A stretch of DNA of 64,000 bases from Aporhodopirellula rubra (lineage in GTDB: Bacteria; Planctomycetota; Planctomycetia; Pirellulales; Pirellulaceae): NCBI RefSeq assembly GCF_014192335.1, contig NZ_JACHXU010000011.1:1-64000 (forward strand). Direction: 5' to 3'. The position numbers were made by a program, and so were the translations under genes. This document shows, one piece after another, positions 8,132 through 18,555 of this stretch; position 1 is the stretch's first letter, and the number at the start of each line of letters is the position of its first letter. The notes beneath the pieces were generated by a model. That model did no database searches, was not told the origin of the DNA, and worked only from the letters and a program-made list of their open reading frames with translations.

Positions 8132-8347
8132 ATGGCATTGGCTGGCGTCCATGTCAAGACGATCCAATCAGTGATGCGACACAAGGACGTGAAATTGACT
8201 CTCGACACCTACGGCCATTTATTCCGGTCGATGGAAGCGGAGGCAGTGCAGCGGATGGCGTTGATGGTTGGCGGTGTGTCGCCGGAGGCTGCGGCAAACG
8301 CACCGCTCACGACCGAAACCAACCGGGTTGGATCTGTCGCAAACTGA
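8132..8347 (+). pseudogene. Integrase relic of element A (C-terminal ~70 codons only)
   Basis: The frame reads MALAGVHVKTIQSVMRHKDV then LTLDTYGHLFRSMEAEAVQRM. This is the end of a tyrosine recombinase catalytic domain: the third conserved His/Arg context (MRHKD, counterpart of LGH) and the nucleophile Tyr in LDTYGHL. Everything before it, including the first catalytic Arg, the Lys hairpin and the HxxR box, is missing, and the preceding bases read as a different frame. A deletion has therefore fused the 3' end of an integrase gene to an unrelated gene start at 8089. Its position 130 bases before the tRNA is the expected place for the element's own integrase. Confidence 0.75.
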
Positions 8348-8480: not shown

Positions 8481-8554
8481 GGGGCTGTAGCTCAGTTGGT
8501 CAGAGCTGGGAACTCATAATTCCTAGGTCGCGGGTTCAAGTCCTGCCAGCCCTA
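8481..8554 (+). tRNA. tRNA with CAU anticodon (Ile2 or elongator Met)
   Basis: The sequence folds as a full cloverleaf: acceptor GGGGCTG / CAGCCCT (first pair G·U), D-arm GCTC…GAGC, anticodon stem GGGAA / TTCCT with loop CTCATAA, T-arm GCGGG / CCTGC with loop TTCAAGT, discriminator A. CCA is not encoded. The anticodon CAU fits either elongator Met or the lysidine-modified Ile2 tRNA. The T-arm and variable-loop wording (GGTCGC.GGTTCAAGTCC) recalls bacterial Ile2, but I cannot decide. The 5' half is supplied by element A and the 3' half is the attachment core of element B, so the gene is a patchwork that is still intact. Confidence 0.9.
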
Positions 8555-9941
8555 CTAGGTAGTAATCGCCGTTGTTGTCCTGAACTATTGAAAACCCGTT
8601 TTCTCGCGGGTTTTCCGGTGTTTTTGCCGGGTTCGCGGCAACAACGGCGGTTCCCTCTTCTGGTTCAATAGCACCAGATTCACCCGAAATGGAACCACCA
8701 GACGCGTCGGTTCCACTGGTGGCGTCCTCGGACTCCTCGGTCGGTTTCGGTGTGCCGGAGGCGACCGTCGTCGCCTCCGGATCCGATGCCGCCTTGAACG
8801 CTTCGTCCGTCGCCATCGCGTAATGCTTCATCGCCGTGGGCACCGAATTGCCGAGCCACGAGGCGACGTCCTTGGCCGGGTAGCGGGCCATCAGTTCCGT
8901 TTCGCGAGAGGCCCGCAAGTTTTGGAACAACCGGGGCCACGGCTCCACACCGCCACGCGTCAGAATTTTTAGGAACGTGGTCCCCAAGTTTTGATCGGGT
9001 CGCCGATATCGGTTGATCACGTAGGGCGACGTCGGGCCGTCCGGCATCGCATCCCATGCCGCTTGCAAGTGCCGGTGAAGTTCAGGGAATATCGGGCACA
9101 CCCGGATCCCGCCGGAGGAGTGGTGTTCAGTTTTCGACGCCGTGATGGTCATTTTGCGGGCCTCCAAATCAATATCCGACCGTCGCAGTGGGATCAATTC
9201 GGACGGGCACCGCAGGCCACCGTAACGCGTCAGGGCCAATATCAGACGCCAGTCGCCGCAGGGACAATGGTCCATCAAACTTTCAATCGTTGTCGACTCG
9301 ACGAAGTGTTGGTTTTTCTCGTTTCCTTGGCCGGTCGACGCGAGGCCCGCGAACGGATTGGAATCAATGAGGCCACGAGCCATCGCCTCACCGAAAAACA
9401 GTTTCGCCAGTGCCGTCATCTTGCGAGTCGTTTCCTCGGACAGCCCCGGTTTATCCTTGTCGCGGAGATTGCCTTTCGTCTTGATCGCAATCCGCCACTT
9501 GCGAGCGTCCTCGACCGTCACGTCACGAAGTCGTTTTCGTTTCCCGAAATAGTCGACCAGCTTCGCACGGCCGCGAGAGTAGGTGAGTTTCGTGCTTGGC
9601 TTCACGTCCTCACGCTCCGCCACGTATTCGTCGATCCATGCGACCAATGTCAGATCACGAGAGACGCGTTTGGTGACCGATTCGCACAGACCGCATTTCG
9701 CCAGCTTGTTCCGCAGGTCGTTATCAACACTCGCGAGCCAATCAGCCGTCGCCGATTCCGGTGGTCGCTGTTTTTTGGTTTGCACGATCAAGTGTTCGAC
9801 GTGGGCCTGAATATCCTCCGCCTTGGCCTCGGTCACGTCACCCAGCCAAATAGATCGCTTGCGTTTCGAAGCATCCCGAAATTGCAAACGGTATCCGCCG
9901 GTGCGTTTCTCGGTCTTTTCTTCGCGGCTCAAACTCGCCAT
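8523..9941 (-). CDS. Tyrosine integrase of element B, ending inside the tRNA gene
   Basis: The product is 472 residues from the ATG at 9941, chosen because GGAG lies eight bases upstream; an ATG nine codons earlier is possible. It has an N-terminal arm-binding region, a core-binding domain (about 90-200), then a catalytic domain with R244 (GGLRCPSE), K270 (TASKTE), R343 (FQNLRAS) and Y374 (AMKHYAM). The positions of the two canonical His residues hold Gln340 and Asn365, a pattern I associate with planctomycete integrases. A long acidic, Pro/Ser/Thr-rich region follows. The last residues, VGLAGLEPAT, are encoded by the antisense of the tRNA 3' half, and the stop lies in the tRNA. In the reconstructed circular form the frame continues through the core into the open tail now at 17095-17286. 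Confidence 0.9.
   Translation of the reverse strand: MASLSREEKTEKRTGGYRLQFRDASKRKRSIWLGDVTEAKAEDIQAHVEHLIVQTKKQRPPESATADWLASVDNDLRNKLAKCGLCESVTKRVSRDLTLVAWIDEYVAEREDVKPSTKLTYSRGRAKLVDYFGKRKRLRDVTVEDARKWRIAIKTKGNLRDKDKPGLSEETTRKMTALAKLFFGEAMARGLIDSNPFAGLASTGQGNEKNQHFVESTTIESLMDHCPCGDWRLILALTRYGGLRCPSELIPLRRSDIDLEARKMTITASKTEHHSSGGIRVCPIFPELHRHLQAAWDAMPDGPTSPYVINRYRRPDQNLGTTFLKILTRGGVEPWPRLFQNLRASRETELMARYPAKDVASWLGNSVPTAMKHYAMATDEAFKAASDPEATTVASGTPKPTEESEDATSGTDASGGSISGESGAIEPEEGTAVVAANPAKTPENPRENGFSIVQDNNGDYYLVGLAGLEPAT
8535..8556 (+). repeat. attL core of element B (22 bp, tRNA 3' end)
   Basis: TTCAAGTCCTGCCAGCCCTA plus CT: the T-loop to acceptor 3' strand of the tRNA. It is identical to 17287-17308 and the flanking bases differ on both sides. 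Confidence 0.85.
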
Positions 9942-10066
9942 TGAATCAACTCCATCAGTTGTTCCCATGTAGGTGAATGAAGAGCCACGGCGGGGCCGGC
10001 ATGGGACCGGCTTTTCGGCCGCTAAACCTAGCCGTGGCCAAACGCATCATAGCGGTGAATCTCGAA

Positions 10067-10411
10067 TCAAAACATTGTCGCCGCAATTTCGTTCCGTGTT
10101 TCACCTTCTTTCAGTTCCGAGAGATAGGACCGTCTATGCGACTCGCACGAATAATCCGATATCGCGTACCGTGCTTCGACGGACACTCCGATGTACTCGG
10201 TCTCGTAATCACTCTCGCCCCCTAGACCATTCGCTCGGAGATCCCAACGTATCCGGCCTACAATGAAGTCGTGTCGATTCGCCGCGGACCGAATTAGCGG
10301 ATCCACAACTTGAACCCAATCACCCTCACGAGGTACGGCGGGGAGTTCCAAATCAAAACCGAAATCTGCTTCACCACCATGTGGTGGAACTACTACAAAG
10401 TGAATTCTCAT
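10067..10411 (-). CDS. Hypothetical 114-aa protein
   Basis: It begins MRIHFVVVPPHGGEADF; this ATG gives a natural beta-strand start and is preferred over an upstream in-frame start. Features: beta-rich N-terminal half (FGFDLELPAVPREGDWVQVVD), a central IVGRIRWDL strand and a charged helical C-terminus. I do not recognise the family. Composition (GC, Arg and Asp use) matches the neighbouring element genes. It lies between the integrase and the winged-helix gene, all leftward. Confidence 0.6.
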   Translation of the reverse strand: MRIHFVVVPPHGGEADFGFDLELPAVPREGDWVQVVDPLIRSAANRHDFIVGRIRWDLRANGLGGESDYETEYIGVSVEARYAISDYSCESHRRSYLSELKEGETRNEIAATMF

Positions 10412-10507
10412 AGGATTTTCCAAAAGGGAATGTTGAAACGACGAAAAACTTCGCCCGTACATTCCATGTCGCGAAATCGGTGTGAGTAGGGTCGCCTAGT
10501 TATCGTT

Positions 10508-10927
10508 TTATTGGAGGAAAGTTGTCGGTGGAGCCGTAATCGTCACCAAAGGCGACCGGCCACGAGCAAACTCACACTGGACCAATCCCAATTCCTCCAT
10601 ACGCCGCAAAATCCGTTTTCCGGTCTTCGGGTGGACGCGTAGTTCGCTGAGGAGCGTCGGTGTCATCTTGATCGGATTCCGCCGTTGGTATCCCGCCGCA
10701 TACCACAGCAGCACCGCCACGGCCTCGGCACGATCACCACACGTCGACGCCGCTCGGAACCACGTCAACGGGATCGGGCCACGGATGAATCGCTCACCCG
10801 GTCGATGCCGTGGCAATGGCACCGATACCGACTTGGCCTTGGCGTTCCGATCGACTCTCCGCTCGCCACGGACTGCGAACAATTCGGCCACGTCGGTGGG
10901 GCGGGCCGTGAAAGATTCCAAGTTCAT
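10508..10927 (-). CDS. Winged-helix DNA-binding protein
   Basis: The product is 139 residues starting MNLESFTARPTDVAELFAV. The C-terminal half is a winged helix: AVAVLLWYAAGYQRRNPIKMT, TPTLLSELRVHPKTGKRILRRMEELGLVQ, then wing strands CEFARGRSPLVTITAPP. An upstream in-frame extension to 11149 would run through direct repeats and is rejected. The repeat-rich region directly upstream (10939-11071) is a natural target for this protein, either as autoregulatory operator or as replication iterons. The conserved PIPLTWFRAAS stretch before the winged helix is common in such element-borne regulators as I remember them. Confidence 0.65.
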   Translation of the reverse strand: MNLESFTARPTDVAELFAVRGERRVDRNAKAKSVSVPLPRHRPGERFIRGPIPLTWFRAASTCGDRAEAVAVLLWYAAGYQRRNPIKMTPTLLSELRVHPKTGKRILRRMEELGLVQCEFARGRSPLVTITAPPTTFLQ

Positions 10928-10938
10928 GGGGTACCTAT

Positions 10939-10982
10939 TAAAGAGATTTCTAAATAGAACCAGTAAAGAGATTACTAAGTAG
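10939..10982 (-). repeat. Two 19-bp direct repeats, 25-bp period, upstream of the winged-helix gene
   Basis: On the plus strand TAAAGAGATTTCTAAATAG (10939-10957) and TAAAGAGATTACTAAGTAG (10964-10982) differ at two positions. They are the most AT-rich bases of element B and lie 11 to 55 bases before the winged-helix start, so they may overlap its promoter or form an unwinding element. Confidence 0.65.
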
Positions 10983-11008
10983 ATATGGGGGTACGGGTGG
11001 GACAACAC

Positions 11009-11071
11009 GTTCCATTTCTTGGACAATGCGTTCCGATTTTCGGACGACGCGTTCCAATTACCGGAACGTGG
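11009..11071. repeat. Three iteron-like 21-bp repeats next to the DNA polymerase gene
   Basis: GTTCC starts at 11009, 11030 and 11051, exactly 21 bp apart, each in a unit of the form GTTCC-N6-8-GGA preceded by ACRYG. The third unit is a clear inverted repeat (GTTCC…GGAAC). Regular helical-phase spacing next to a polymerase gene suggests binding sites for a replication or regulatory protein. Confidence 0.65.
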
Positions 11072-11081
11072 TGTCCGATGT

Positions 11082-12821
11082 TCAAGTTTGCTGTTTGGCG
11101 TCCGCTTCGCAGGCAAGCCGGACCACTCGGTCCCACATATCCACACCACGATCGTCGTCCATGTAACGGTCGGGATGCCGGATCACCTTGGCGTCGGACT
11201 CCAAATCGAAGCCATCGAGCACGAGGCGACCGGCCTCTCGCATGATCGCTTGCGTTTCCATCACCACACGGTCGATCACGTCGGTTTCGGCCTCGATCAA
11301 AATTGCATCGTGAACCGGACAACACACCCGAACTCCGGCCTCGGTCGCCATACAGCACGCCAGACGCATCATCTCCGCCCCGTTGGCCTGCATCGGGAAG
11401 TTTGCGAGGGACCTCGGATTGTCGCCGCCGATGGTGCGGATACGCCACCCGAACACGGTCTGTAACCCGCCGGTCAACATCGCAGTGTCGACTTGGGCCT
11501 GCGACCATTTCCAAAACACAGGAAAGGTTTCGCGGTGTCGACGGAGGAGGTTTCTCGCGAACGCGACCGGCTTGTTCAACTTCAACGCGAGTCCGTGTTC
11601 GCTCATGCCGTATTGGGTCGCCAACATGCAAACCTTGTACGCCGATCGCTCCGCCGGGTGGGATTTCTTCGTCGCCGTCGCCGGGACCGCTCCGGCCATC
11701 TTGGCGAACTCCAAATAGGGATCCCCGCTCGCGTAGGCACGCGTCAACGCAGGGTCGCCGGACAATGCCGCCGCAATCCCGAGTTCTTGCTGCGACCAAT
11801 CCACGTAGGCCAACGCGTGACCGTGTTGAGGTTGCATTAAACCGCGTAACCAAACCGATGGACCGAAAATGAATTTGTTGTTGGACGGTTGATTCCGGCC
11901 ACTGCGACTCGCGAACGGACTCAACATCGTCCGGTTCCGTCCGTCCGATCCCACTGCCAACTTTTCCAGCTTCATCTCGGACAACGCGTGACACAGTTCA
12001 CGCAGTGGCGATAGTTGCGGATAGGTTTTCACTTGATCCCGAAACACGTCGTCCTTCAATGACAATTGACCACTGTCCGTTTCCGGCCACGGGATCCCGT
12101 TACGAATCAGATATGCCGCAAACCGATCACGCTTCAACGTCATCCCATCGAACACGCCGAACGCATGATCGACCGACCGAATCAAATCGAGTTTGATCGT
12201 CTCCCATTGCCGCCGAAACATCGACAATATGTTCGTGTCGATCGGGATCCCGTTGTATTCCATACTCGCCACGGCTTTCATGTAACGGCCACGATGCACC
12301 GCACGAGGGAAGTCGATCAGCGGCAACATAGCGGGCAACAATTTGTCCAGAGCATCGACGTCGGTCTGACAGTAGTCCACGAGTGCTTCCATCTCCTCGG
12401 ACGTGTATGGGCCGCCGCGTATCGCGAGATCACGCATTTCGGTTTTCTCGGTCGCCAACATCGAATCGAAACCGAAGTGTGACAGGCACGAGAGCAGGCC
12501 CCATCCGGACGCCGGAAAAGTGCCGTTGAGCATGTTCCGAAACTCACACCACAAGTCGAGCACGTAGGTCGGTAGGCTCCATCCCAAGGCGAGGAAACAT
12601 TTCCACTCCGCCGATGAAAAGTACGCCACGCAAAGCGAACTCGGTCCCGTGTCAAACGGCGGTTCCTTCATCGTCGTCAACGCGTCCATGTCGATCCGAA
12701 TCAATCGCTTCGTATGGAACTCACGAGCCACCAGACAAACAACGCTCGGCCGTTCGCCTGGTGGTTGTGAGAACTCAAAGTCGAGTGACCAAACCGAATT
12801 AAATCGGTTCAGCCAATCCAT
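11082..12821 (-). CDS. Family-A DNA polymerase with 3'-5' exonuclease domain (element-borne)
   Basis: The product is about 579 residues. The N-terminal ~170 residues are a DnaQ-like proofreading domain: LDFEF (Asp/Glu pair, exo I), VLDLW (exo II) and YCQTDVDAL (exo III). The polymerase domain has motif A YVDWSQQEL (about D341), motif B ERSAYKVCMLATQYGM (Lys396, Tyr404) and motif C PVHDAIL (His504-Asp505). There is no 5' nuclease domain, so it is shorter than cellular Pol I (~900 aa) and typical of phages and integrative elements. Translation starts at GTG 12824 or ATG 12821, overlapping the upstream stop (GTGATG). It is probably the replication polymerase of element B. It is last in the overlapping operon and next to the iteron cluster. 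Confidence 0.9.
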   Translation of the reverse strand: MDWLNRFNSVWSLDFEFSQPPGERPSVVCLVAREFHTKRLIRIDMDALTTMKEPPFDTGPSSLCVAYFSSAEWKCFLALGWSLPTYVLDLWCEFRNMLNGTFPASGWGLLSCLSHFGFDSMLATEKTEMRDLAIRGGPYTSEEMEALVDYCQTDVDALDKLLPAMLPLIDFPRAVHRGRYMKAVASMEYNGIPIDTNILSMFRRQWETIKLDLIRSVDHAFGVFDGMTLKRDRFAAYLIRNGIPWPETDSGQLSLKDDVFRDQVKTYPQLSPLRELCHALSEMKLEKLAVGSDGRNRTMLSPFASRSGRNQPSNNKFIFGPSVWLRGLMQPQHGHALAYVDWSQQELGIAAALSGDPALTRAYASGDPYLEFAKMAGAVPATATKKSHPAERSAYKVCMLATQYGMSEHGLALKLNKPVAFARNLLRRHRETFPVFWKWSQAQVDTAMLTGGLQTVFGWRIRTIGGDNPRSLANFPMQANGAEMMRLACCMATEAGVRVCCPVHDAILIEAETDVIDRVVMETQAIMREAGRLVLDGFDLESDAKVIRHPDRYMDDDRGVDMWDRVVRLACEADAKQQT

Positions 12822-13552
12822 CACGCAGCCCCGAAGAGTTCCAGCAGGAACGGGTGGTTCATCGAGTCAATGAATCGGGTTTTGAACGCGAGTTTCAACA
12901 ACTCGCCCATTGAAAGTTCCGGCCACTCCGGCTCCGGCAAATTGCCCGTGGCCTCGAACACCGCGTAGGATCCGGACGACATATCCGCCTGGACCCGCAC
13001 CCAGCTCTTCGTCGCAAGTTCTTGGGCCTCCAACATCGACGTGTGCCAGTCCATCGGACGTCCGTTTGGATCCGGTAGTTTCGCAGGCCACAGGAACGTC
13101 GCACCGTGACGGTTTACCGCAACGCACAGGCGAACCAGTGTGATGAAGTCCGGTAGCTCCGGCCACAACGCAGGGGCCACGAGGTAGCTTTCGCGGTTGT
13201 TCTTGTCCTCCACGATAGCGGTGTCGATCCGGTACGTTTCGGACGGATGCACACGGCAAAACTCCATCTTGTCCGGTTTGCCGACTTTCAACGTGACAAT
13301 CTTGCGTTTGACGCCGATCGCTCCCGCCGCCGTGTTCGGGTTGATCCGCAGAGCCGCCGGGTCAAACGGATCGACTGCACGAAGAGGATCCGGTGGTTCC
13401 GGTGTCGCCGCCACGGCCACGTCGACCGGTGGTTTGTTCGGAGGAACGTTGTCCTCCACCTGGACTTCGTTTTCGATGCCGGGCAGGTTTCCGGCCTCGG
13501 AGGTCGCGTTGGACTTGGACGTCCGTTTGGTAGTTTTGCTAGAATCGCTCAT
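12821..13552 (-). CDS. Conserved hypothetical protein upstream of the polymerase
   Basis: The product is 243 residues. The first ~75 residues are low-complexity and Pro/Ser/Thr-rich with likely disorder. The folded part starts IGVKRKIVTLKVGKPDKMEF and includes FCRVHPSETYRIDTAIVED, a region rich in aromatic residues (LVAPALWPEL…TLVRLCVAVN) and FLWPAKLPDPNGRPMDWHTS. The ATGA overlap with the zinc-ribbon gene and the TGATG overlap with the polymerase show tight co-translation, so a replication accessory role (for example single-strand DNA binding or polymerase partner) is a reasonable inference. I do not recognise a named family. Confidence 0.7.
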   Translation of the reverse strand: MSDSSKTTKRTSKSNATSEAGNLPGIENEVQVEDNVPPNKPPVDVAVAATPEPPDPLRAVDPFDPAALRINPNTAAGAIGVKRKIVTLKVGKPDKMEFCRVHPSETYRIDTAIVEDKNNRESYLVAPALWPELPDFITLVRLCVAVNRHGATFLWPAKLPDPNGRPMDWHTSMLEAQELATKSWVRVQADMSSGSYAVFEATGNLPEPEWPELSMGELLKLAFKTRFIDSMNHPFLLELFGAA

Positions 13553-13782
13553 AGGTTCGTTTCCTTCGTCGACCGTGCATCGTCATCACCGGTGCCGGTC
13601 GTTTTTTGTTGATAAATGTTGAGGTTGTTAGAAGTCACGAGGCAGAAGTCGCCTTCGGATGACAGATGTTTTTGCGGCTCAATGGAATACCGCAGGCATG
13701 GTTCGCACAGACTCGCGAAACCATTGAGCACGCGGAAACGGTGGACCACGGCTTCGCGTCGATTGCAGAAGTCGCATAGCAT
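13549..13782 (-). CDS. Small zinc-ribbon protein
   Basis: The product is 77 residues starting MLCDFCNRREAVVHRFRV. Cys3, Cys6, Cys26 and Cys29 form CxxC-N19-CxxC, a zinc ribbon. The start at 13782 overlaps the stop of the upstream gene (TAATG). The ribbon closely resembles the C-terminal ribbon of the upstream protein (CEVCRNEPVVHH against CDFCNRREAVVHR), so neighbouring genes share a duplicated module. The C-terminal half is polar and probably disordered. Likely DNA- or protein-binding accessory; exact role unknown. Confidence 0.65.
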   Translation of the reverse strand: MLCDFCNRREAVVHRFRVLNGFASLCEPCLRYSIEPQKHLSSEGDFCLVTSNNLNIYQQKTTGTGDDDARSTKETNL

Positions 13783-14165
13783 TATTCGCCGTCCGATTGG
13801 CCCGAATTGGGGCCAACGAATCGCCAACACTCATCGCAGGTATCCACCACGCCGTTGTCGGTCGGAACGTGGTGGACCACTGGTTCGTTCCGGCATACCT
13901 CGCAAGTGGCCGGGGGGGCCGATTTCGCCGCCATGTGCGTTATCACGGCATGGGGGTCAAACAACACTTTGCGACCGACACGGATGACGGGTAACTCGCC
14001 ATCACGCAACATCGTGTCCAGCTTCGGGACCGACACGTTGATCACCTCGGACAGTTCGTGCCGTGTGAGAAGTCGCCGCCGGTTGGCAAGACGATCGGCC
14101 ACCCGGTCGGCGACCATATCGGCCAACACTTCCATGTCGACCGGGCTCAGATCGGAGAGCGTCAT
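13782..14165 (-). CDS. Excisionase-type HTH protein with C-terminal zinc ribbon
   Basis: The product is 127 residues starting MTLSDLSPVDMEVLADMV; this ATG overlaps the upstream stop as ATGA. Residues 30-75 are an HTH_17/MerR-like fold: LLTRHELSEVINVSVPKLDT, then RDGELPVIRVGRKVLFD as wing and DPHAVITHM as the closing helix, the signature of excisionase-like proteins. Cys88, Cys91, Cys110 and Cys113 form a C-terminal zinc ribbon. It is the best candidate for the recombination directionality factor or for a regulator of element B. Confidence 0.7.
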   Translation of the reverse strand: MTLSDLSPVDMEVLADMVADRVADRLANRRRLLTRHELSEVINVSVPKLDTMLRDGELPVIRVGRKVLFDPHAVITHMAAKSAPPATCEVCRNEPVVHHVPTDNGVVDTCDECWRFVGPNSGQSDGE

Positions 14166-14428
14166 TTCGCACCTCCGATCGAATCGTCGACTAATTCCCA
14201 CAACCGGGAATGACAACATCGATTCGTCGATGGAACGTAACCGACCGGACGAATAATCCGGTCACGATGAAGCTCGGCGACCATCGCACCGAACACGCGT
14301 CCGTCCAAACCATCGGGCATGGACAGACCACGAATTGCATCGGTAAACGTGGCGGGGCCGTCTTTGAGTCGGCGGAGAAACCGACGTCGGGCATCGGCAA
14401 TCAGCTGCCGTTGGTGTTGATTAGCCAC
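14162..14428 (-). CDS. Small winged-helix-like protein
   Basis: The product is 88 residues from a GTG at 14428, chosen because a strong GGAGGTGG lies just upstream; an ATG at 14446 has no such site. Sequence: VANQHQRQLIADARRRFLRR, then PATFTDAIRGLSMPDGLDG, GAMVAELHRDRIIRPVGYVP and SRLWELVDD. The order helix, helix, helix, Arg/Pro-rich strand is consistent with a winged helix. Its stop overlaps the next start by four bases. No family recognised. Confidence 0.55.
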   Translation of the reverse strand: MANQHQRQLIADARRRFLRRLKDGPATFTDAIRGLSMPDGLDGRVFGAMVAELHRDRIIRPVGYVPSTNRCCHSRLWELVDDSIGGAK

Positions 14429-14606
14429 GATCCACCTCCGATGCATCGGAGGTGGACTCTGTAGACTGTTCTAATTCGGTGGCCAACCTGAGCAGAATGC
14501 CCAGTTTCGCGGCCTCTGCTTGCACCTGAATCAGTCGTTCTCGCACGATACGAGAAGACGGTATGACCGGCATTTGAAGCGACTTCGGTCGTAGGTCTGT
14601 TGCCAT
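14421..14606 (-). CDS. First gene of the element B operon: 61-aa helical protein
   Basis: It starts MATDLRPKSLQMPVIPSS and continues as one long predicted helix (RERLIQVQAEAAKLGILLRLATELEQ) before an acidic tail, suggesting a coiled-coil protein. AAGGAGGT seven bases before the ATG is the best Shine-Dalgarno sequence in the element. It overlaps the next gene by eight bases. No family recognised. Confidence 0.6.
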   Translation of the reverse strand: MATDLRPKSLQMPVIPSSRIVRERLIQVQAEAAKLGILLRLATELEQSTESTSDASEVDRG

Positions 14607-14640
14607 TAGGCACCTCCTTAAAATGAGATGCCCGAATGAT

Positions 14641-14675
14641 CGCTATCTAATTGGTACAATCAGTGGGTCAAACGG
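14641..14675 (-). promoter_or_regulatory. Candidate sigma-70-like promoter of the element B operon
   Basis: On the minus strand TTGACC (14671-14666) is a near-perfect -35 box, followed 16-18 bases on by TAGATA/GATAGC as a poor -10 box. It lies about 40 bases before the first gene of the operon and just past the end of the cargo gene. Confidence 0.4.
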
Positions 14676-14685
14676 TGCCACCGTT

Positions 14686-16212
14686 TTATTGCTCGATCGC
14701 TGACAGCCCCTGTGCCACAGACTCACCAAGCTCAGTCAACCAGTAACCGCCCCCGCGTCCTTCCTTCGCGTCGACTAGTTGCAGCCCTTTCAAATTGTCA
14801 AAAGCTCGTTTCTGGTCACCGCGGTACAGAGCAGTTTTTACGATCGTCTGTGCGTTTTCTTTCTTTGCGGGATAGGCTTTCAATCCCAACATCGCCGAGA
14901 GAATTGCGCGATCGTTTTCTGTGAGGTTATAAAACTGGGGCGATGTTACGTTTGCGTCAGCATCGTTTTCGCCAGACTCGATGGCTGCATTCGCAGGCAC
15001 CGTCAACGTTACCATCCAATTGGCAATCCATAGACACGCATCAGCGTACCTGGATGCAACGTCGCCCAAATGTTCGTGTCGGAATGCTTTCAAAAACTCG
15101 GGATCCGGAATTGAAGTATCGTTCGTGCCGATTTCGATTGGTCGAAACAGTCCTTGTTCATCAACGAGGCGGATAAAACCAGGATTTAGCGACCACGTGC
15201 ATATCGGCACCACGTTTCCCTCGTAGGTTGTTTCCGATGTTGCTGTACTTTCGGTGTACCCCAAAATTGCGACCCCAACATCAATTCTCTTTTCTCGCTG
15301 TCGCTTGGATTCAATCGCAAGTTCTATTGCTGGAGGCAAAGCATGGGCATCGATTGCGTCAGCCACTGCAGATGAAAACTGGCCCGCAAACCAACCAAGA
15401 TTGCGTCGATTGATCTCTGAATAACCTTTGATTTCCTGGAAGTATTCACCGAGTGAAATGAACGCACTAACCAGATCATCGAACCATTGAACTGTCGGAT
15501 TGGTGATGGATGGAGCATGCTCTTTCCGCACTTCAACTTTTGCACCGCGTAATTTTCCGCTAATCGGCGGGTACTCCCCGAAACGATTTCCGTTGTGTGC
15601 AGTCTCCCCAGGTATCGCTTCGTACCTACCAACAACGACCGTGCGATTGGACAGCTCGTGAAGAGCGGTATGCAGATTTTCTTTTACGTGATCTCGATAC
15701 AACTGGCCCCGCTCCCGATCAATCCGATACCAGACCGACTCCAAACGGTTGTTAAATCCGCCCGAATGAATGCCTCTAAATTTTTCGGTGAGTGAGATTA
15801 ACTCAGTCTGTGCCGTGGGAAGTTCGGTTAGCTGCTGGACGCAGTCTTGGCTCCATGAGTCGACATCGTCAACAAATGTCTTCAACAGATCTAGACCGCG
15901 ATAGTACCTCCGGCCCTCAAACTCCAGGTCTTCAAATTTAGGCAGGCTATAAATGAAAAGGTCCGCTAACGTAGGCCAGCGATCCCCCACGATCCTTAGA
16001 TCCGTATTAGCGATTTTGATTAGGTCTCTCGCATTCTGAAAGTTTTCCAGACGATGCTTCAGATACTCCAGTGGATCATCTCGGTACAGGTTTGGATCGC
16101 AATGTGCGTTCGACAAAGCTAGCCCCCACCCCAGGGCAGAGATCGTCGCTCGCATTTTTGAGTAGACACCATCGATTAGATGAATCGCCGCTAGTCGTCC
16201 AGCCAACTGCAT
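14686..16212 (-). CDS. Cargo protein of element B, 508 aa, unknown function
   Basis: It begins MQLAGRLAAIHLIDGVYSKM with GAGAGGGA right before the ATG. The gene is less GC-rich than its neighbours and uses more Ile, Lys and Asn, a sign of a different origin from the replication module. Mostly helical up to residue ~310 (for example HRLENFQNARDLIKIANTDL), then a beta-rich stretch (RIDVGVAILGYTES, NVVPICTWSLNPGFI), another helical part and a C-terminal winged helix: NLTENDRAILSAMLGL, KTALYRGDQKRAFDNLKGLQ, GGGYWLTELGESVA. No catalytic motif or membrane segment is evident. It sits alone at the attR side, the classic position of cargo or defence genes in small integrative elements; a defence role is only a guess. 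Confidence 0.7.
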   Translation of the reverse strand: MQLAGRLAAIHLIDGVYSKMRATISALGWGLALSNAHCDPNLYRDDPLEYLKHRLENFQNARDLIKIANTDLRIVGDRWPTLADLFIYSLPKFEDLEFEGRRYYRGLDLLKTFVDDVDSWSQDCVQQLTELPTAQTELISLTEKFRGIHSGGFNNRLESVWYRIDRERGQLYRDHVKENLHTALHELSNRTVVVGRYEAIPGETAHNGNRFGEYPPISGKLRGAKVEVRKEHAPSITNPTVQWFDDLVSAFISLGEYFQEIKGYSEINRRNLGWFAGQFSSAVADAIDAHALPPAIELAIESKRQREKRIDVGVAILGYTESTATSETTYEGNVVPICTWSLNPGFIRLVDEQGLFRPIEIGTNDTSIPDPEFLKAFRHEHLGDVASRYADACLWIANWMVTLTVPANAAIESGENDADANVTSPQFYNLTENDRAILSAMLGLKAYPAKKENAQTIVKTALYRGDQKRAFDNLKGLQLVDAKEGRGGGYWLTELGESVAQGLSAIEQ

Positions 16213-17094
16213 TCCCTCTCATATTGCAACTCAGGCCGATCCGATCGGCCGCTACGGAAAGGGTTCGTAGTCGGCCGGTCGAATCGTACGGCCGGAGCTA
16301 CCGGCCTACCTTAGAAATCGTCGCGGGTCAGGCGACGACGATTTAGTGGGCGACCAAACCCACAGCACCATTGTGGGGGAATGCTCCGCTCCGTCCAAGT
16401 GCCGGTGAACCGGAGGGGGTGGGGTGGTCCCATTTCACGACGGACGCGTGCGAGAGTAGTGGCATGGACGGGAATCAACCCGCGAAATCCGCACCGGGAA
16501 GGACCCGCAAGCCCCGGTGCCACGGCTCCGTCGCACCGTCCGTCCGGAATATCTATTTGCTGGTCACGCTTACGCAGACGGGCACCCAGGTCATTTGTCG
16601 ATGTCGGTCGACAATTTGATGGCCCCCCTTGGACGATCAAGACGGACGGACTCTCTCTCCGCCGTGCGGTGGCGGGAATCTCAGCGGTCCCGACAATCGA
16701 CCAGGAGGACCCAATAGGGTGCGGGCAATCCACAGGTCCCCCCCCTCCCCCGCGTCAATTTCACGCCGGACGGTGTTTAAGGGGCCACGGACTGAATTCT
16801 ACCGCAGGACGTCATCGACCGCCCCAGGGACCCGAAAGGCCTGCCAGGGGGGCCCGCGAAATTCATTTTGCTGCATACGCAAGACCCGCAGGCCAACAAT
16901 CGGTCGTGACGTTCCGAAACAGAGAATCTACCGTCCCCGCCGGTCTGTCCAATCTCGGATTCAGCTCGACGGCTCCTTGTGACATTGTTCAGGCAGGAAA
17001 TTCAGGGTCGTACCTACCCGAATCAGGGTCGTACCTACCCGAACCAGTCGGCACCCGCATGGGCCACGCTCCGGTCGCCGGATGAATCACACGG
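16213..17094. other. Non-coding right end of element B
   Basis: About 880 bases between the cargo gene and the stranded integrase tail. It is GC-rich with many short C-runs and inverted repeats (for example CCGGTAGC-type palindromes at 16285-16310 and TCGTCGC…GCGACGA at 16318-16338). Open frames here have Arg/Pro/Gly-rich translations typical of random GC-rich DNA. It probably holds integrase arm sites and the cargo promoter. Confidence 0.55.
17003..17044 (+). repeat. Tandem 21-bp repeat near attR
   Basis: CAGGGTCGTACCTACCCGAA followed by T or C occurs twice head to tail (17003 and 17024). It lies ~250 bases from the attR core and is a candidate pair of arm-type integrase or excisionase sites. 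Confidence 0.6.
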
Positions 17095-17286
17095 TCACCG
17101 CACCCCCTCACGTCGACTCAGAATGCTTTCGGCGACCGTGGTCAACTCCTCGATCACGTCGATGTCGAGATCACTCAAAACACGTCCGAGAGCATCGGGA
17201 ATTGGACACAATGGAACCACCGGTGGAACAACGGGAACCCCATCGACCGAATCGGCCCCGTGAATTACGATGTTTTGTTCGCAAGA
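17095..17286 (-). pseudogene. Stranded 3' tail of the element B integrase gene (63 codons)
   Basis: Reading leftward from the attR core, the frame GTA GGG CTG GCA GGA CTT GAA is the same as in the integrase at attL, then continues TCT TGC GAA CAA … to a TGA at 17097-17095. The 63 codons have normal protein character, ending in an amphipathic helix (PDALGRVLSDLDIDVIEEL, then SILSRREGVR). In the circular element this would be the genuine C-terminus of the integrase; in the integrated state it is cut off from its gene. A short in-frame start upstream (GTG at 17325, chromosomal side) exists but is probably not used. Confidence 0.7.
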
Positions 17287-17308
17287 TTCAAGTCCTGCCA
17301 GCCCTACT
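17287..17308 (+). repeat. attR core of element B
   Basis: Second copy of the 22-bp tRNA 3' end. Downstream TTTTTCC is probably the native terminator of the tRNA gene, now separated from it. Confidence 0.85.
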
Positions 17309-17343
17309 TTTTCCGTCTCACGCACGCTCTGTAAGTCCGCTTC

Positions 17344-18555
17344 ATGCCCCGCCAGCCCGCTCCCCGCAAGAAGCAGTCACGTCCTGCCGATGACACCAAA
17401 CGATTGAATCAACTGCTCGCGTCGGCAGGATTGGGCAGTCGGCGTCACGTCGAAGAGTTAATCCGTGAGGGCCGCGTCGAGGTGGACGGGGAGGTGGTGA
17501 CGCAGTTGAGCGTGAACGTGAATTCGAAGACGCAGAAGGTGCGTGTGGACGGAATTCCGTTGAAGCCTCAGAAACTGGTTTATTACGCGGTGCACAAACC
17601 GACGGGGGTGGTTTCGACCAATTCGGATCCGCAGGGGCGGGTTCGGGTGATCGATTTGGTGCCGCCGACGGAGCGAGTTTATCCGGTGGGGCGATTGGAC
17701 CGCAGTAGTGACGGTTTGATCTTGTTGACCAACGATGGGGAGTTGGCTCAGTCGTTGTCGCATCCGAGGTTTGGCGTCCAGAAGATTTATCGCGTGACGG
17801 TCGCCGGGGAAGTGAAGCCGGAGACGATGCGTAAGATGCGTCAAGGGATTTACATCGCGGAGGGTTTGGTCCGGGTCGACGGGGCCAAGATCATCAAGGC
17901 TCGCAAGAAAGCGACGGACATGGAGATCCGTTTGCGAGAGGGTAAGAACCGCGAGATCCGTCGGATTTTGGCGAAATTCGGGCACAAGGTTCAGACGCTG
18001 CGTCGGGTCGCGATCGGGCCGCTGCGGTTGGGTGACATGCCAGCGGGTGCATACCGAAAATTATCTCGGGAAGAAATTGAGAAGCTGCGATCGATCGCAT
18101 CACAGGCTGCGGCGGCGCCTCCGGAAAAGCCGACCAAGGAACAGGCGGCGGGCCGAGGCGGCGCAGACGGACGAGGTCCGGGCGTCGGGAAACCTCGTGA
18201 TTTGAAACCGGCCGACGGAAAGTCGCGAGGCGGCAAACGGGCGACGGCAAAACGTTCGACGGTGAAACGTTCAGCGGCGGGAGGGGCCGCGGCAGGTCGT
18301 CCTGCGTCGCGGGGGGCAGCGGGCGGTGAGCCGCAGCGTCGCGAGAATCGTCGTCCGGTGAAAGCGGTTAAGCGAACCGTCAAGGCTCCGTCGCGTGATT
18401 CGCTGCGTGTGGGCAAAATCATTGTGGGGGATGAGGTGGTTGCGGAGACGACGCGAGAGTCTCAGGGGCCGAAGGCGAAACGTGGAAAAGCGGCCTCGAA
18501 AAAGTCATTCAAACGCACCGGTGGTGTTTCTCGAAAACGTAAAGGAAGACGATAG
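17344..18555 (+). CDS. rluB: Ribosomal large subunit pseudouridine synthase (RluB/RsuA family)
   Basis: The product is 403 residues. Residues 18-70 are an S4 RNA-binding domain (RLNQLLASAGLGSRRHVEEL). The catalytic domain carries GRLDRSSDGLILLTNDG with the nucleophile Asp119, and KIYRVTV and GKNREIRRI typical of the RsuA/RluB/RluE/RluF family, which isomerise a uridine in 23S (RluB) or 16S rRNA. A Lys/Arg/Ala/Gly-rich tail of ~150 residues (from about 250) is disordered and likely RNA-binding; E. coli RluB has a shorter one. First gene after the attR site; the 35-base gap contains the tRNA-terminator T-run. pyrK follows six bases after its stop. Confidence 0.9.
   Translation: MPRQPAPRKKQSRPADDTKRLNQLLASAGLGSRRHVEELIREGRVEVDGEVVTQLSVNVNSKTQKVRVDGIPLKPQKLVYYAVHKPTGVVSTNSDPQGRVRVIDLVPPTERVYPVGRLDRSSDGLILLTNDGELAQSLSHPRFGVQKIYRVTVAGEVKPETMRKMRQGIYIAEGLVRVDGAKIIKARKKATDMEIRLREGKNREIRRILAKFGHKVQTLRRVAIGPLRLGDMPAGAYRKLSREEIEKLRSIASQAAAAPPEKPTKEQAAGRGGADGRGPGVGKPRDLKPADGKSRGGKRATAKRSTVKRSAAGGAAAGRPASRGAAGGEPQRRENRRPVKAVKRTVKAPSRDSLRVGKIIVGDEVVAETTRESQGPKAKRGKAASKKSFKRTGGVSRKRKGRR

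Follow-up and report, generated by a model that had tools for sequence, protein, structure and literature searches.

An attachment site within the integrase gene

Why would the integrase gene of a mobile element end inside a host tRNA gene? This question is raised by a small element in the DNA analysed here, the first 64,000 nucleotides of contig NZ_JACHXU010000011.1 of Aporhodopirellula rubra (hereafter the window). The element is delimited by two copies of the 22-bp core TTCAAGTCCTGCCAGCCCTACT, which occurs exactly twice in the window, 8752 bp apart (Table 1), and the first copy forms the 3' end of a complete tRNA-Met gene. In a sister species (G408), this tRNA and the right flank are contiguous and thus represent the empty bacterial attachment site (attB). 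The integrase gene (int) enters the tRNA from the opposite strand. Its stop codon (8523-8525) lies inside the tRNA and the protein ends in ...LVGLAGLEPAT, with a length of 481 amino acids (aa) from the ATG at 9968, or 472 aa from the ATG at 9941, where MASLSRE corresponds to the start used in the family.

Past the second core copy, at the other end of the element, the int frame runs on for 63 codons (SCEQNIVIHG...SRREGVR; SCEQNIVIHGADSVDGVPVVPPVVPLCPIPDALGRVLSDLDIDVIEELTTVAESILSRREGVR) up to a TGA at 17097-17095. Joining the ends of the element into a circle connects int and this tail through the core in a single frame, and the computed product comprises 532 aa (472 - 3 + 63) versus 472 aa in the integrated state. 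The phage-type attachment site (attP) is thus embedded in the 3' third of a tyrosine-integrase gene, and integration removes about 60 residues. Both points had been made in a sequence-only reading of this locus, and its 8752-bp circle, codon count, stop position and protein lengths were all reproduced. We assign a probability of roughly 80% to the overall explanation, namely a tRNA-Met-targeted 8.75-kb element that carries attP inside int and exchanges the integrase tail upon integration.

The enzyme belongs to the tyrosine recombinase (phage integrase) family. In the window protein, PF13102 scores above its cut-off and PF00589 (E-value 0.0016) below, while both exceed their cut-offs in integrases of relatives; the window protein also matches a PHROG integrase (E-value 9e-35). 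The catalytic columns R, K, R, H and Y are invariant in the family alignments. The exchanged part begins beyond the catalytic domain, ~85 residues after the catalytic Tyr, and this domain is intact in both forms.

Recurrence across Planctomycetota

We searched 392 Planctomycetota genomes and found relatives of the integrase in 47 of them. The 3' end was complete in 62 distinct integrase genes, and 45 of these run into a tRNA gene on the opposite strand by at least 10 nt, with 11 isotypes represented. The earlier suggestion that endings of the AGLEPAT type have a general reading, with attP inside int, is hereby borne out within the family, whose integrases as annotated are mostly devoid of the native C-terminus. 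The T-loop is crossed in all three frames (35, 7 and 3 cases), and the tail keeps to the frame in which int traverses the tRNA, whichever of the three it is.

A second core was found for 30 elements, yielding 30 reconstructed attPs. Beyond the core, the int frame stays open for at least 40 codons in 27 of them, compared to 5 and 6 for the other two frames; over all 30, the median number of open codons is 61 in the int frame and 22 and 12.5 in the others (Wilcoxon p = 0.002 and 0.0005). The 27 open continuations span 42-90 codons and belong to elements targeting tRNA-Val, Met, Leu, Ile, Glu, Asn and Arg as well as one non-tRNA site. Regardless of tRNA and frame, the tails are homologous, with the consensus GGAESGA...DPDLAxIVxAWPxLSxxxRAxIxxL.

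A profile built from ten tails detected tails at seven loci outside the training set, all seven of which abut a core copy in the int frame. Among these are another element of the window's own genome and a non-tRNA target; one of the seven (L040) is not fully independent, since it had already been located by its core. A genome-wide search with the tail profile provided eight further testable cases, six of which are preceded in frame by an identical core of 21-39 bp. The pattern was unsupported in the other two, where the match was to another repeat (G303) or to a homologous int fragment (G121). Long open reading frames (ORFs) matching the tail in genomes G181 and G194 were discarded as other proteins or masked sequence.

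The closest relatives carry the same element at the same tRNA: in R. sallentina SM41 (85% integrase identity) the second core is 8177 bp away, and in Planctomycetes bacterium K23_9 (62%) 8101 bp. Target and genes are shared, and in both the int frame continues into a homologous tail.

In the second element of the window's own genome (L036, G000:C45), the last residues of Int form a tRNA-like peptide in decay, MGDTELESVTSTM; a tRNA is not predicted at this locus, and the in-frame tail lies at the other end of the element. At L077 (G105), the 21-bp core CCGTTCCACTGCGGAACAGGC is located outside any predicted tRNA and is nonetheless joined by an in-frame tail. At L095/L052 (G385) and L040, family members appear to be arranged in tandem, with one integrase following another or with a remnant of an int linker beside attR (the right attachment site), towards the chromosome.

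Long integrases in free molecules

The sequence-only reading called for a search among relatives for a conserved longer integrase, and the 27 open attPs answer it for integrated elements. For free molecules, we scanned viral contigs. An alignment-based scan gave 80 matches, while a single-sequence scan gave none; the phage (INPHARED) and plasmid (PLSDB) collections held no useful free relatives. Int, core and tail form a single ORF in the contigs L108, L117/L119, L106/L107, L103, L126 and L113. Four long-int contigs have exact terminal repeats and are hence circular (L108, 119 bp; L103, 80 bp; L107, 44 bp; L126, 69 bp). Terminal repeats were not found in four others, whose circularity is thus not shown. 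A tRNA-like core can be clearly made out in L108, L126, L119 and L113 but was not recognised in L103 or L106/L107. As these contigs were selected by an int ORF matching the tail profile, they document the existence of the long form in free molecules rather than its frequency.

A natural before/after pair is provided by L116, integrated in a tRNA-Ser with a short end, and L119, which is free and long. They are 87% identical over the aligned integrase and diverge past the common GGGATTCGAACC. Contig L126 (7355 bp) additionally has ORFs that, as judged by eye, resemble a prohead protease, a small terminase and a DnaB-like protein, and is possibly a phage satellite.

Predicted structure and selection on the tail

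In the structural model of the long L119 integrase, the N-terminus consists of three strands and a helix and resembles an arm-binding domain, followed by the catalytic domain up to about residue 375. Residues 389-460, which contain the core, are predicted to be disordered, and a helical hairpin is predicted at residues 463-491 (predicted local distance difference test score 81-95). Foldseek returned lambda Int as the best match of the model, and Tn1549 Int was also matched. The hairpin had no match in Pfam or PHROGs; its W and L are at least 90% conserved in the tail alignment.

Between the window and R. sallentina, 46 nucleotide differences in the tail lead to 19 amino acid changes, versus ~29 expected under uniform substitution (p = 5e-5 in 20,000 simulations, two thirds of which also gained a stop). 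The ratio of nonsynonymous to synonymous substitution rates (dN/dS) for this pair is ~0.42 in the tail, 0.6 in the linker and 0.09 in the catalytic part. In most hairpin pairs, the proportion of synonymous differences (pS) exceeds that of nonsynonymous ones (pN). Some pairs show clear selection on the hairpin codons (pS 0.52, pN 0.12-0.26), others do not.

Candidate arm-type sites inside int

In 25 of 27 attPs, a direct repeat occurs both in the linker and in the tail (p <= 0.05 relative to dinucleotide-shuffled sequences); an inverted one does so in 1 of 27. The repeat is usually paired with a 12-bp period, for example GCGGTGCAGAAAGCGGTGCAG. In 15 of 27 attPs it is read in different frames on the two sides of the core (AVQNPVQ versus GAESGA; in the window GGSI versus PVVPL), so that what is conserved is the DNA sequence. 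The arm-to-arm distance is 172-231 bp with one outlier and is quantised at 11.6 bp (R = 0.83; matched by 0 of 5000 random sets), a statistic that ignores kinship and may partly stem from the tandem repeats themselves. In five free attPs, the repeat matches at 19-20 of 20 positions at a distance of 217-229 bp. The window element contains GTGGTTCCA exactly only twice, at 8690 and 17212. A DNA hairpin at the tail was rejected, since the predicted folding is no better than in shuffles.

We regard these flanking repeats as candidate arm-type Int sites, in which case the whole attP with both arms would lie within int. The open-licence literature yielded no description of arm sites inside int, which is weak evidence of absence. 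The sequence-only reading had proposed that the tail has protein-like character; the conserved coding frame agrees with this, but that part of the tail is also conserved as DNA had been missed.

Proposed mechanism and competing explanations

Taken together, a cycle of the following kind may be envisaged. In the free circle, as the sequence and the free relatives show, the gene encodes the long enzyme, with an arm-binding-like N-terminal domain, catalytic domain, disordered linker and terminal two-helix hairpin in their predicted roles; the linker DNA holds arm-like repeats and the tRNA-derived core, and a second set of repeats precedes the hairpin codons. The enzyme would recombine the core of the element with that of the tRNA, leaving the linker repeats at attL (the left attachment site) and stranding the tail repeats and hairpin codons at attR. 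The integrated int, as its sequence shows, ends on a few residues and a stop from the host tRNA. Excision would restore the long gene, as follows from the anatomy of the element. We see about even odds that the hairpin plays a part in the free-state reaction and that the integrated-state enzyme, having lost it, differs in activity or directionality, as has been reported for Mx8 Int. An effect would have to arise through the loss of the tail, since the ends that replace it are arbitrary. It is plausible that the tail swap acts as a switch. A more specific version would treat the hairpin, present only in the free state, as a DNA-encoded memory: with the whole attP and its paired arms in int, integration would turn Int from an integrating into a quiescent or excising enzyme and excision would reset it. 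We advance this version tentatively and would bet slightly against it.

Some observations weigh against this picture. Three of the 30 attPs lack a long continuation (L037, 8 aa; L087, 21; L095, 1) and have weak cores; the core of L095 probably belongs to a tandem neighbour. The replaced ends share no common sequence. The element's own 8752-bp circle is predicted, as it was read from the integrated form. The shuffle test of the repeats ignores shared ancestry, the arm function is deduced from repeats, and the window has a 12-bp repeat pair on the tail side only. Finally, protein-level selection on the tail is modest next to that on the catalytic part, and for the short-tail subgroup as well as two hairpin pairs, dN/dS is ~1.

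Because selection on the hairpin is clear in some pairs and not in others, a neutral by-product remains a serious rival, possible though in our view doubtful: attP would be nested in int for compactness or linkage, as one cassette, with a tail that adds little and is lost without regulatory effect. The catalytic domain shared by both forms, replaced ends that vary freely from 3 to ~70 residues and the tail dN/dS near 1 in some pairs fit this idea. It accounts less well for a confidently predicted hairpin that is conserved across distant members, for the purifying signal between the window and R. sallentina, and for short-int genes that repeatedly lose exactly the domain kept by free forms. Were the short integrase instead inactive, integration would be self-locking and excision would need long Int in trans from another element. 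A functional analogue exists in archaea (PMC8371274), and several planctomycete genomes hold multiple family members. We nevertheless consider this unlikely, as the cut retains all conserved residues of the catalytic domain, whereas in SSV (Sulfolobus spindle-shaped virus) integrases that domain itself is separated, and the account in PMC6070905 reports that Mx8 Int is not inactivated by the same kind of change.

The tail could also be conserved solely as DNA, as sites of the P' arm, its translation being incidental; repeats that keep sequence and spacing while their reading frames differ speak for this. However, the open frame and the conserved W/L hairpin reach beyond the repeats, the other frames close early and pS exceeds pN in most hairpin pairs, which renders the idea improbable. 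An exchange of degradation tags, in which the tail carries an ssrA-like degron, follows a logic related to that of mycobacteriophage BPs (PMC9262239). We rejected it as highly improbable, given that the tails end without a common LAA-like signal (EGVR, KLVQD, IIQR, VKAGR, LGVD and others). Long chance ORFs are common in the GC-rich window, but tail homology, frame statistics and free long forms leave virtually no room for a chance open frame, which we likewise rejected.

Comparison with known systems

The closest precedent for an attP inside int with a longer free form is Myxococcus phage Mx8, for which the review PMC6070905 (citing Tojo 1996 and Magrini 1999) describes that int acquires a new 3' end on integration and that the integrase is reportedly altered without being inactivated. 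The Mx8 enzyme is likewise a tyrosine recombinase. In Mx8 int (L276, 5085-6809), we found a perfect T-arm stem-loop read as GLEPV, a peptide of the kind that also occurs in the planctomycete integrases (ARSTGLEPVLLG, STGLEPV; DNA GGAGTACGGGACTTGAACCCGTACTCC), followed by a long tail of its own, with 117 residues from GLEPV to the end. The likeness between the integrases is distant and general (17.9 bits) and the tails are not homologous (1.1 bits), the Mx8 tail being longer; similarity is thus at the family level and does not extend to common descent of the C-terminus. Flanking 20-bp repeats were not found in the Mx8 int 3' region. Mx8 is one phage, whereas the planctomycete family is phylum-wide with many tRNA targets.

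The Islander authors noted that Mx8 and SSV integrases extend across attP (PMC4383910). In archaeal SSV-type 'suicidal' integrases, the recombination site also lies inside the gene, but integration splits it into Int(N) and Int(C) and severs the catalytic part (PMC8371274); in the planctomycete family this part stays whole and only the C-terminal tail is swapped. In mycobacteriophage BPs, attP overlaps coding sequence and integration at a tRNA truncates a protein at or next to the core, yet the truncated gene encodes the repressor and the mechanism of its integration-dependent immunity is loss of an ssrA-like tag (PMC9262239). Here, the interrupted gene is int, and the tails have no LAA-like ending in common. 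The sequence-only reading had drawn its control analogy from repressor systems, but Mx8 is the nearer case; the interpretation given in that reading is partly supported as a whole, a long form that favours integration and a short form that favours stability being its hypothetical part. As in lambda attP, repeats flank the core on both sides, and the L119 model resembles lambda Int in its N-terminus and Foldseek match; the planctomycete repeats differ in that they are candidate sites within int codons, spaced by 12 bp, with a motif that varies by subfamily.

The principle of an attP in int with an exchanged C-terminus is therefore already known from Mx8; what appears to be new is the planctomycete family, with its conserved domain in the tail, and the arm-like sites embedded in int. 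No paper on this family was found in the open-licence literature, which is weak evidence of absence. A one-phage curiosity thus becomes a recurrent architecture, a widespread and independent variant, recognisable in any genome by an integrase that ends in a tRNA-derived peptide (GLEPAT, RTRTC, DSNL), endings that are hereby explained. Both attP and the true full-length enzyme can be reconstructed from the integrated sequence alone. The family qualifies a review statement that recombinases disrupting their own gene are confined to archaea (PMC8371274) and provides a natural setting in which to test whether recombination can be given a direction by rewriting the very gene of the recombinase.

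Other features of the element and its surroundings

Table 1 Features of the 8752-bp element and adjacent sequence in the window
Feature	Position	Strand	Basis
tRNA-Met (CAT), intact, integration target	8481..8555	+	tRNA prediction; empty site in sister species G408
attL core, 22 bp, common to the tRNA 3' end and the int 3' end	8535..8556		core search
Integrase (tyrosine recombinase), short integrated form, 472 aa, ends AGLEPAT	8526..9941	-	PF13102, PHROG integrase
Candidate arm-type site on the int side of the core, GGTGGTTCCATT, translated as GGSI	8688..8699	-	repeat analysis
DNA polymerase A family protein, element cargo	11082..12824	-	PF00476, E-value 6e-24; kept in sister elements
HTH_17 protein, candidate recombination directionality factor (excisionase)	13782..14219	-	E-value 5e-5, marginally below the Pfam cut-off
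C-terminal tail of long Int, stranded at attR, 63 codons + TGA	17095..17286	-	int frame continues through the core once the ends are joined
Candidate arm-type site, tail side, GTGGTTCCA, read within PVVPL	17212..17220	-	repeat analysis
Candidate arm-type site, tail side, GTTGTTCCA, 12 bp from the 17212..17220 site	17224..17232	-	repeat analysis
attR core, 22 bp, displaced tRNA 3' fragment	17287..17308		core search
S4 + pseudouridine synthase gene, chromosomal, right of the element	17344..18555	+	domain search; adjoins the tRNA in the empty site

The HTH_17 protein, which we infer to be a candidate directionality factor, has homologues with 91% and 64% identity in the two sister elements. The DNA polymerase A protein has homologues in the two sister elements as well (92% and 75% identical); its gene is carried by a small integrative element in which no capsid genes were recognised.

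To the left of the element, positions 2430-2472 match the 5' part of the tRNA-Met gene at 95%, 6 kb away from it, and an ORF at 8132-8347 that resembles the C-terminus of a tyrosine recombinase ends directly before the tRNA. Both probably belong to another island, one that entered this tRNA from the opposite side.

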